Shown here: piece by piece, positions 47,990-51,370 of the stretch | Layout of the letters: the number at the start of each line of letters is the position of its first letter | Numbering within the stretch: position 1 is the stretch's first letter | Origin: Rubripirellula sp. | GTDB taxonomy: Bacteria; Planctomycetota; Planctomycetia; Pirellulales; Pirellulaceae | Length of the DNA stretch: 64,000 bases | NCBI GenBank assembly: GCA_012270065.1 | Contig: JAAXJB010000039.1 | Coordinates: forward strand, 258,832 to 322,831 | Direction of reading: 5' to 3' | Notes under the pieces: model-generated | Database searches by the model: none | Told to the model about the DNA's origin: nothing | The model's input: the letters and a program-made list of their open reading frames with translations, nothing else | Position numbers and translations under genes: made by a program

Positions 47990-48020
47990 CAAAAAAACCC
48001 GAGTCGCCGGGCGACTCGGG
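47990..48020 (-). terminator. Intrinsic terminator between leu leader peptide and leuA (attenuator terminator)
   Basis: Minus strand: aacccgagtcgcc-c-ggcgactcgggtttttttg. Near-perfect stem (48010-48020/47998-48008) followed by a T run. Confidence 0.93.
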
Positions 48021-48068
48021 TTCGTTGTCTTTTCCTGCGAAAGGCCGTCCGGCCTATCCAAACCCTCA

Positions 48069-48125
48069 TCATCCGCCTGTCGGGCGATCAACTAGTAGCA
48101 GCAGGGGGAGGTTTGAGTAACGCAT
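48069..48125 (-). CDS. leuL: Leucine-rich leader peptide MRYSNLPLLLLVDRPTGG* (Leu attenuator)
   Basis: Minus strand: ATG CGT TAC TCA AAC CTC CCC CTG CTG CTA CTA GTT GAT CGC CCG ACA GGC GGA TGA TGA. Five Leu codons within six residues, 50 nt before the terminator hairpin and upstream of leuA. Confidence 0.9.
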   Translation of the reverse strand: MRYSNLPLLLLVDRPTGG

Positions 48126-48131
48126 GCCCCC

Positions 48132-48180
48132 ATGTTAGGCAACAGACAGTACCAGCGTCAACGGTTCATTATTTTTTTTC
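48132..48180 (-). promoter_or_regulatory. Predicted sigma70-type promoter for the leuL-leuA transcript
   Basis: Minus strand: A-rich tract CGAAAAAAAATAATG, then TTGACG (48161-48156), N18, TAACAT (48137-48132). Expected +1 near 48125, the leader ATG. Confidence 0.65.
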
Positions 48181-48314: not shown

Positions 48315-49394
48315 TCAAGCTGCAGCTTTTGGAATCTCCTTGCCCTGTAGCTGATACACATATCGCAACACTTCCGCCACTGCCTGATAGTGATCGGCAG
48401 GAATGATGTCACCAACGTCCACTGTTTTGTACAGGACCTGGGCCAGTGGTTTGCGTTCAACCACGGGAATACCATTCTCAAGCGCCAGGCGACGAATTTT
48501 CTGCGCCAGAACTCCGGCACCTTTTGCAACCACAATTGGTGCTGGCATGGTCATTGGATCGTACTGGATGGCAATGGCCAGTTCCGTTGGATTACTGACG
48601 ACCACATCTGCCTTGGGAACTTCACTTTCTGCGCGTTGCATCATCAATTGCCGCTGCACCATTCGTCGCCGTGCTGCTACTTGCGGGTCGCCTTCTGTTT
48701 CCTTCAATTCATCACGAACCTCTTGATCAGTCATCATCAAATCCTGCTCATGCTTCCATTTCTGAAATGCAAATTCAAGTATTGCGAGAATAAAAAGAGA
48801 CAAACCTATCCAGACACAGGTTCCAAGCAGACATTCAAACAGACTTGAAGCAATTTGCGGAACACTCAGTTCCGCCAACTGCAACATCGAATCGCTGTAA
48901 TATCGCACCGCGAAAAAAGCAACAACAGTGATGACAGCAACCTTGAACAGACCAAACCCCAACCTCACGAGACCCTGCAGAGATACAATTCTCTTGACAC
49001 CCGAGATCGGGCTGATGTGACTCAATTTGGGAACAATTTTCTTGGTACTGAAGACAACGCCGGTCTGGGTAACGTTCACCAACACACCTGCGAACAACAT
49101 TGCCAGCAGAAGTGGCACGGCAGCAAGGGCCAAGCGACCTGCATAACCCAACAGCCAGTTTGCTGCGTCATTTGTTTCCAGTGACTGCATTCGTGGCACT
49201 GACAGAGCATCCACGATTGCAGCCGCCAACTGTTCAGCCGCCGGCGGGCCGAACATCCACAACGTACCCACAGCTGCCAGCAACATACCCGCCGACGTGA
49301 GGTCCTGACTGCGAACAACCTGGCCCTCCTCGCGGGCCTGTCGCCTGCGACGTTCACTCGCTGAATGCTTTTTATCTCCACTGGAATCAGCCAT
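48315..49394 (-). CDS. flhB: Flagellar export protein FlhB
   Basis: KKHSASERRRRQAREEGQVVRSQDLTSAG; autocleavage motif VVSNPTELAIAIQYD. Confidence 0.95.
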   Translation of the reverse strand: MADSSGDKKHSASERRRRQAREEGQVVRSQDLTSAGMLLAAVGTLWMFGPPAAEQLAAAIVDALSVPRMQSLETNDAANWLLGYAGRLALAAVPLLLAMLFAGVLVNVTQTGVVFSTKKIVPKLSHISPISGVKRIVSLQGLVRLGFGLFKVAVITVVAFFAVRYYSDSMLQLAELSVPQIASSLFECLLGTCVWIGLSLFILAILEFAFQKWKHEQDLMMTDQEVRDELKETEGDPQVAARRRMVQRQLMMQRAESEVPKADVVVSNPTELAIAIQYDPMTMPAPIVVAKGAGVLAQKIRRLALENGIPVVERKPLAQVLYKTVDVGDIIPADHYQAVAEVLRYVYQLQGKEIPKAAA

Positions 49395-49423
49395 GTTTGC
49401 TCACTTCCCGGCTTGATCCACGG

Positions 49424-50206
49424 CTACCAAAGACGACCCAATTTCGCAGCAACTGTCGCCAGTTCATGCTGAAATACCAAACCAACCGAACCAATGGTGA
49501 CGCTTAAAATCACAAGCATCGCCAGGGCATTGATACTCAAACCAATTGCCAGAACATTGATTTGCGGCAACGTCCGACTAATCAACCCAGTGACGAGGTT
49601 GCTCAACAGTAAAGCGGCGATGACTGGCGCAGCAATCCGCACACCTGATGCCATCCCCGCTGACAATTGACCCATGACCAAATCCATCATCGAGTCATGG
49701 AACTCGACATTTCCTGCTGGAACCGACTGGAAGCTTTCAAGTAACACTCCCAGCAGAATCCGATGCCCACCAACCAGTAACATCACGGCGGTGACGAGCA
49801 GCCCTACCAATCGGGCAACTGAGGGCATACTGCTCGAAGTTGTCGGATCAACGGCATCACCCAATTGCATTCCGCCTGTACTGGTGATCATCTCGCCACC
49901 CATCTGCAGACCAGTGACAATCAACTGGACGGTCGAGCCAATCAACAAGCCAATCAGACCCTCTCTTGCGATGGCGATCGCAAGCTCAATCAGGTTATCC
50001 ACATGGGGTAAATCCTGTACTTCAGTATCACTCGCGACGGGAGGAAGAACGAGAACAGTCAATACGATTGCCAAAAACGCCCGAACACGTTTTGGTACAC
50101 CCACACCCACGGAGGGCATGGACATCAATAGCGTGCTCATGCGTGTCATGACCAACACGCCCAGCACCAGATGCTCCATCAGCCAAGCAGTCAAAGACTC
50201 CATCAA
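49424..50206 (-). CDS. fliR: Flagellar export protein FliR
   Basis: LVMTRMSTLLMSMPSVGVGVPKRVRAFLAIVLTVLV; GGEMITSTGGMQLGDAVDP; adjacent to fliQ and flhB. Confidence 0.93.
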   Translation of the reverse strand: MMESLTAWLMEHLVLGVLVMTRMSTLLMSMPSVGVGVPKRVRAFLAIVLTVLVLPPVASDTEVQDLPHVDNLIELAIAIAREGLIGLLIGSTVQLIVTGLQMGGEMITSTGGMQLGDAVDPTTSSSMPSVARLVGLLVTAVMLLVGGHRILLGVLLESFQSVPAGNVEFHDSMMDLVMGQLSAGMASGVRIAAPVIAALLLSNLVTGLISRTLPQINVLAIGLSINALAMLVILSVTIGSVGLVFQHELATVAAKLGRLW

Positions 50207-50466
50207 GGTGATCCTGCATTCTCAAACACAACGCGGGTAAAATCCACCATCCTGGTGAGCAGCCAGGGAAGGCAAATCAAGAGCACAGCTGCCATCGCGA
50301 GTATTTTGGGTACAAACGCAACCGTTTGATCCTGGACCTGTGTCAATGCCTGCATCAAACCTACCAGCAGACCCGCAGCCATTCCGACCAGAAGAACAGG
50401 GGCAGCAATGATCACTGCGGACATGAGCGTTTCACGACACAAATCAACGGCTGTTGCAGCATCCAT
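50203..50466 (-). CDS. fliQ: Flagellar export protein FliQ
   Basis: DLCRETLMSAVIIAAPVLLVGMAAGLLVGLMQALTQVQDQTVAFVPKILAM; 87 aa. Confidence 0.95.
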   Translation of the reverse strand: MDAATAVDLCRETLMSAVIIAAPVLLVGMAAGLLVGLMQALTQVQDQTVAFVPKILAMAAVLLICLPWLLTRMVDFTRVVFENAGSP

Positions 50467-50482
50467 TAATCCTATGACTCCA

Positions 50483-51370
50483 TCACATCATCGTCCCGAA
50501 ACTGTCCATCAACATCTGGACAACTAAACGCCAACCATCAACCAAAACAAAGAGCAGGAGTTTGAATGGCAGCGAAATAACCTGCGGTGGCAACATCAAC
50601 ATTCCCATCGAAATCGTCACACTGGCAACGACCAGGTCCACAATCAGAAATGGCAGATAAATCTGAAAACCCATCAGGAAAGCTGTCTTCAACTCACTCA
50701 GTATGTAAGCCGGTAGCAGAACACGGAGCGGAACATCCTCAAACGAACTTGGTAGCGGTGCATCAGGGTCCATGTATTGATAAAACAGATGCACATCATC
50801 GTGATTTCCTGCCACATCAATCTGGCGGGCCATGAATTCTCGAATTGGAATGGAACCAGCCTCATAAGCTTCCTCCATCGTCATCGACACTTCAGGGTCT
50901 GTGTAGGGTTTGATCGCATCGCTATATACGCGAGACCATACCGGTGACATCACAAACAACGTCATGAACAGAGCAATGCTTGTCATGACCTGACTCGGCG
51001 GCAATGACTGCAAACCGATGGCCTGTCTCAACAAGCCAAGCACAATGATGATTCGCACATAGCACGTTGTCATCAAGAGAACCGCCGGGGCCAAACTCAA
51101 TACCGTCAACAGCAACAGTACCTGAAGGCTGCTACTGAGCCCCTCCGGACTCGTCCATGCCTCTGGTCCACCTCCCAAACCCTCCAAGGGAGTGTTATCC
51201 AAATCAGGAAGCGAACTGCCGCTTCTCGAAAAGATCGTGGGCGCTGAAGGGCTCTCCAGACTCAATGGGATTTCGGAGGTCTGTCCAGCCGGGATCCCCT
51301 GCGCAAAGGCGCACGCAGTACCTGTCAGCAACAGGCAAAGAACCCATCGAATGAAAAACAAACCGTTCAA
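50483..51370 (-). CDS. fliP: Flagellar export protein FliP
   Basis: LSLAPAVLLMTTCYVRIIIVLGLLRQAIGLQSLPPSQVMTSIALFMTLFVM; SELKTAFLMGFQIYLPFLIVDLVVASVTISMGMLMLPPQVISLPFKLLLFVLVDGW. Confidence 0.97.
   Translation of the reverse strand: MNGLFFIRWVLCLLLTGTACAFAQGIPAGQTSEIPLSLESPSAPTIFSRSGSSLPDLDNTPLEGLGGGPEAWTSPEGLSSSLQVLLLLTVLSLAPAVLLMTTCYVRIIIVLGLLRQAIGLQSLPPSQVMTSIALFMTLFVMSPVWSRVYSDAIKPYTDPEVSMTMEEAYEAGSIPIREFMARQIDVAGNHDDVHLFYQYMDPDAPLPSSFEDVPLRVLLPAYILSELKTAFLMGFQIYLPFLIVDLVVASVTISMGMLMLPPQVISLPFKLLLFVLVDGWRLVVQMLMDSFGTMM

Follow-up and report, generated by a model that had tools for sequence, protein, structure and literature searches.

The window analysed here, a 64,000-nucleotide stretch of a Rubripirellula sp. 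contig, carries on its minus strand, from 48161 to 46315 and in this order, a promoter, a leader ORF, a GC-rich hairpin and leuA, the gene for 2-isopropylmalate synthase. The listed leuA ORF (47952-46315) opens at a GTG upstream of ATG 47916; the latter is the most likely start, as judged from the sequence conserved in relatives, and places the gene at 47916-46315. The LeuA proteins of the nearest named relatives, Rubripirellula MAGs, are 86-87% identical to it, and that of a MAG labelled only Planctomycetaceae is 93% identical. In the window, leuA is followed by a convergent gene and not by leuBCD. Immediately 5' of the leuA leader, on the same strand, ORFs at 48315-51370 resemble FliP, FliQ, FliR and FlhB and appear to encode flagellar export functions.

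The leader ORF, leuL (48125-48069, minus strand), encodes the 18-codon peptide MRYSNLPLLLLVDRPTGG and reads ATG CGT TAC TCA AAC CTC CCC CTG CTG CTA CTA GTT GAT CGC CCG ACA GGC GGA TGA. Leucine is specified by codons 6 (CTC), 8-9 (CTG CTG) and 10-11 (CTA CTA), which places five Leu within codons 6-11. Downstream lies an intrinsic terminator (3:4; 48023-47991) with a 13-bp stem, a 3-nt loop and a U7 tract, whose hairpin at 48023-47995 has the composition GAACCCGAGTCGC-CCG-GCGACTCGGGTTT+T4. The 5' arm of this terminator, region 3 (CGAACCCGAGTCGC, 48024-48011), is common to the terminator and to a putative antiterminator, the 5' strand of which, region 2 (GGCGGATGATGAGGGTTTG, 48077-48059), contains the stop codon of the leader (48071-48069). 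Region 1 (CAAACCTC, 48115-48108) can in turn pair with region 2 (at 48067-48059). A small apical hairpin, AGGCC-GGAC-GGCCT (48055-48042), is located between regions 2 and 3 and would sit within the antiterminator loop. Numbered from the leader ATG, the Leu codons fall at nt 16-33; region 2 spans nt 49-67, with the stop codon at nt 55-57, and the terminator arm starts from nt 103. The original prediction for this DNA, made from sequence, had described the Leu-run ORF at 48125-48069, followed by a strong intrinsic terminator and then leuA, and this description is correct to the base. It had also assigned region 1 to 48115-48108, region 2 to 48067-48059, an additional pairing GGCG to 48077-48074 and region 3 to 48024-48018, with positions and pairings that we found to be right.

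We examined the conservation of this arrangement by locating LeuA orthologues in 180 of 200 genomes of the window's family and reading the upstream DNA of 110 of them, with a leader defined as a short ORF containing at least 5 Leu in 9 residues upstream of leuA. Such a leader was present in 89/110 family genomes, compared with 8 of 550 dinucleotide-shuffled upstream sequences and 2 of 38 control upstream regions from the same genus (ilvB, trpE and leuC). Leader and terminator occurred together in 74 of the 110 genomes and were both missing from 14 (Fisher p=1.6e-5 for co-occurrence). Outside the Leu run the leader peptides vary freely, apart from residues specified by region 2 that are kept within subgroups, and it is therefore the Leu run that is conserved. 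Beyond the window's family, several families of the same order share the arrangement, as do most of the remaining families sampled from class Planctomycetia, with carriers in the other orders sampled. Named carriers include Stieleria tagensis, Roseiconus nitratireducens and Thalassoglobus neptunius; the arrangement is also present in a Gemmataceae MAG (L213), where the U tract of the hairpin is poor. Only sporadic cases occur beyond this class. Leu-rich short ORFs precede leuA in L236 (Phycisphaerales) and L254 (Verrucomicrobia), and are possible attenuators elsewhere in the PVC group. A lack of conservation of the Leu run and hairpins among relatives, named beforehand as the outcome that would speak against an attenuator, did not occur, as the 89/110 family genomes and the carriers in other orders demonstrate. 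As judged by this comparison, the leuA attenuator is a genuine and old element. The terminator stem was among those proposed for a covariation check, and column counts in the 20 nearest relatives support it, with two compensated pairs and 96.5% of cells paired. Within the window's clade the small apical hairpin also keeps its pairing while its letters differ (GGCC/GGCC, GACC/GGTC, GCCAC/GTGGC and ACCAC/GTGGT), and in most genera outside this clade it is absent.

A sigma70-type promoter was recognised at 48161-48132 on the minus strand, with a -35 element TTGACG (48161-48156), an 18-nt spacer and a -10 element TAACAT (48137-48132). Its position predicts a transcript start on 48125, which is the A of the leader's ATG, or on an adjacent nucleotide. 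Information content computed over all leaders pooled gave no promoter signal, because only the leaders of the window's clade would be leaderless, and the signal was resolved once leaders were split by clade. The seven nearest genera supplied 46 leaders; relative to the ATG, TA...T begins at position -12/-13 in 40 of them and TTGAC at -36/-37 in 39, and other offsets of the two elements are almost empty. This fixed promoter offset was not seen in more distant genera. The leader in the window's clade is thus probably leaderless, which would be a refinement to the original prediction, where such a start was absent. Leaderless attenuators are known from Sinorhizobium trpL (PMC10117765) and from several actinobacterial leaders.

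The location of this promoter also bears on whether the hairpin might simply be the terminator of the upstream flagellar operon and the leader a Leu-rich frame arising by chance. No terminator of the flagellar genes' own was found on the same strand between the end of the flhB-like ORF (48315) and the leuA leader; transcripts reading through from those genes may therefore be stopped at the hairpin as well. That it serves this purpose alone is extremely unlikely, as the hairpin is separated from the upstream gene by a promoter that keeps a fixed distance to the leader ATG, and leader and hairpin are conserved together with leuA across class Planctomycetia.

Next, we compared the Leu codons of leaders with those of leuA in the L003-L032 genomes that supplied both sequences. 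CUA accounts for 30% of leader Leu codons versus 3% of those in leuA, a tenfold enrichment, and UUG, which leuA uses most often for Leu (43%), makes up only 4.5% in leaders. In the Salmonella leu leader, replacing three CUA by CUG is cited as having lowered the sensitivity of the attenuator (Carter et al., as cited in PMC1183508), and the planctomycete leaders provide an independent case of this rare-codon rule for leu leaders. As CUA could base-pair with the UAG that region 2 contains, some of its excess may serve this pairing rather than rare-codon control.

The mutually exclusive 2:3 antiterminator, a central claim of the original prediction, was addressed by duplex calculations. Pairing of region 2 with the 5' arm of the terminator is predicted at -17.7 kcal/mol in the window, where GGCGGATGATGAGGGTTTG lies opposite CGAACCCGAGTCGCC. 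Column counts in the 20 nearest relatives found the 2:3 pairs too uniform to display covariation, and for this reason swap tests between genera were used. Other genera possess region 2/partner combinations of different sequence, such as GGCCGTAGGGG/ACCCCGAGGCC, GAGCGTTAGGGGTT/AACCCCGGCGCTC and GGTCTTAGG/CCTGAGGCT. In a comparison of 37 genera, region 2 was predicted to pair more strongly with the region 3 of its own genome than with that of another genus (Wilcoxon p=8.5e-6), and it also outperformed its shuffled versions (p=1e-8); when 26 genomes from other families were put through the swap test, the outcome was p~1e-5. A less stringent form of the duplex test that used long regions had given noisy results. 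The antiterminator therefore covaries across genera and families. In most genomes compared, the stop codon of the leader lies inside or beside region 2, where a terminating ribosome would be able to block the antiterminator, as the mechanism requires. Two genomes of genus g19 differ at this point: the stop TAG of L090 is CAG in L082, whose ORF continues to the next TAG, and the pairing of region 2 is kept.

The 1:2 helix fared less uniformly. In the window, the duplex is predicted at -9.1 kcal/mol, and its complementarity is kept with different letters in several close relatives, including L006 (CAAATTCTC) and L008 (CACACAGCCC/GGGTGTG). Family-wide, the advantage over swapped partners was modest (p=0.019), region 1 performed no better than its shuffled versions (p=0.22), and its position relative to the ATG slides between genomes. 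Hence this part of the original prediction is plausible for the window's clade and weak across the family. These data touch on a two-state variant that dispenses with a real 1:2 helix, in which stalling would still free region 2, but an untranslated leader would form 2:3 and read through, a ribosome at the stop codon being the sole state to promote termination. The family-wide weakness of 1:2, largely explained by the C/U-rich composition of the Leu codons opposite a region 2 rich in G (the shuffle p=0.22), speaks for such a variant, and the maintenance of 1:2 with other letters in L006 and L008 (the swap p=0.019) speaks against it. So does the predicted (MFE) fold of the untranslated leader RNA, which contains the terminator hairpin and not the 2:3 helix. 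We consider the two-state variant possible but doubtful.

The sequence and its comparison among genomes establish the leader and its biased codon use, the terminator, and 2:3 as an alternative helix. We infer from them that the leader is translated, that ribosomes stall on it and that leucine is what it responds to. In the proposed scheme, transcription would begin at the leader ATG, with the ribosome loading directly on the 5' end, as the promoter position suggests. When leucine is sufficient, the ribosome would get to the UGA and cover region 2, leaving 3:4 to pair and RNA polymerase to terminate near 47991. When leucine is low, it would stall within the Leu run (codons 6-11), before reaching region 2; the geometry suggests that a ribosome at codon 8-11 would partly cover region 1 and leave most of region 2 free. 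Pairing of 2:3 would then keep the terminator from forming, and leuA would be transcribed. An untranslated leader may be biased towards termination by the 1:2 helix. The E. coli-type leu attenuation of the original prediction is thus supported as a prediction, with all parts present and conserved and 2:3 covarying. We are highly confident that the leuA leader is a ribosome-mediated transcription attenuator responding to charged leucyl-tRNA, and very probably the leader ORF and its switchable hairpin turn leucine synthesis on only under leucine scarcity.

In addition to cis attenuation, the terminated RNA of ~135 nt or its peptide might act in trans, in the manner of rnTrpL/peTrpL. A leaderless leader followed by an intrinsic terminator would yield a small mRNA of the rnTrpL type (PMC10117765), but conservation of the leader peptide does not extend beyond the Leu run, and we regard a trans function as unlikely.

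Some genomes lack the attenuator. Both leader and terminator are missing before leuA in L056-L058, L063, L065, L068-L070 and L072 of genus g11, in L067 and L071 of g59 and in a few other genomes, indicating that this control is dispensable. Among the g11 and g59 loci scanned with Rfam, no known riboswitch or T-box was revealed as a replacement. In L024, of the same genus as the window, what is left of a promoter precedes a palindromic repeat, CCGGAACAAGCG...CGCTTGTTCCGG, at the site expected for the leader, and the terminator has decayed, with stem pairs and part of the U tract lost. This genome, a single case, may represent a natural attenuator knockout, and the decay is as expected if the terminator persists solely on account of the leader. 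A different type of leader occurs in genus g46 (L020-L023, L026-L031, L035 and L036), where the Leu residues are followed by a conserved C-terminus, either ...SRFVVGT or ...SGFVVDA. In many of these leaders, GATTCGT of the conserved C-terminal stretch is complementary to ACGAATT just 5' of the terminator, and conservation of the peptide may thus be RNA-driven. No conserved leader or terminator was found upstream of ilvB, trpE and leuC in the window's genus. A short Leu-rich ORF, MQTNVFCLLLLPILSRFNC, does directly precede ilvB in the genome of the window itself (L270); it has no terminator, is not common to relatives and is probably due to chance. A plasmid search found nothing.

The mechanism is already known, and its presence in Planctomycetota appears to be new. 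It would extend attenuation to another phylum, date it to at least the ancestor of Planctomycetia and add about 90 small ORFs that standard annotation probably misses. As attenuation requires that a leader be translated while polymerase is still on it, such an element lends itself to a simple genetic test for the coupling of transcription and translation. A leucine attenuator dating back to the class ancestor, with Gemmataceae- and Isosphaera-related genomes included, would constitute genetic evidence that nascent transcripts are translated beside RNA polymerase, a conclusion toward which we lean with some reserve. If true, it contradicts the view that some planctomycetes separate transcription and translation. 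Physical separation of the two in Gemmata was claimed by Gottshall et al. 2014, as cited in PMC6212462, and the compartment model of planctomycetes is disputed (PMC6554331).

Our literature search found no report of leader-peptide attenuation in Planctomycetota, in a search that covered subscription journals thinly and so does not prove absence. A survey published in 2010 (PMC2965389) stated that, until the Firmicutes case it presented, leader-peptide systems had been demonstrated in Proteobacteria and Actinobacteria alone. The branched-chain amino acid attenuator of Staphylococcus aureus likewise has a leucine-rich attenuator peptide (PMC5794164), but it works together with CodY and belongs to Firmicutes. 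The leuA leaders of Actinobacteria (the LEU element; Streptomyces lividans leuL1) share a leaderless Leu-run leader before leuA (PMC8079986, PMC1262725). In the LEU element, the Leu run forms part of an RNA structure and codon changes deviated from the prediction of classical attenuation, and the existence of such leaders allows for a non-classical leader of this kind in the window as well. Actinobacterial leuA leaders, however, are without an obvious terminator of the typical intrinsic kind, and a pseudoknot with the leuA ribosome-binding site has been proposed there; by contrast, the window has a conserved 13-bp stem with a U7 tract and an antiterminator that covaries. This strong terminator sets the window's leader apart from the LEU element, and we judge a non-classical leader to be very unlikely here. 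Ribosome-mediated attenuation from a leaderless leader ORF, with a small terminated RNA, is likewise a property of Sinorhizobium meliloti trpL (rnTrpL), which differs in sensing tryptophan and in its alphaproteobacterial host. Comparison with Rfam at E<=10 gave no credible match in the window to any family, be it a T-box, a riboswitch or a leader, and on 20 related loci, mostly without a detected leader, it returned nothing apart from one tRNA. Thus, the E. coli/Salmonella leu attenuator (leuL; Rfam Leu_leader) is not matched at the level of Rfam, and the element of the window further differs from it in that its leader is probably leaderless, its stop codon lies inside the antiterminator strand and its leuA is followed by a convergent gene instead of leuBCD. 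What the two have in common is a leader of Leu codons, an antiterminator and terminator before leuA, and the use of the rare CUA codon.
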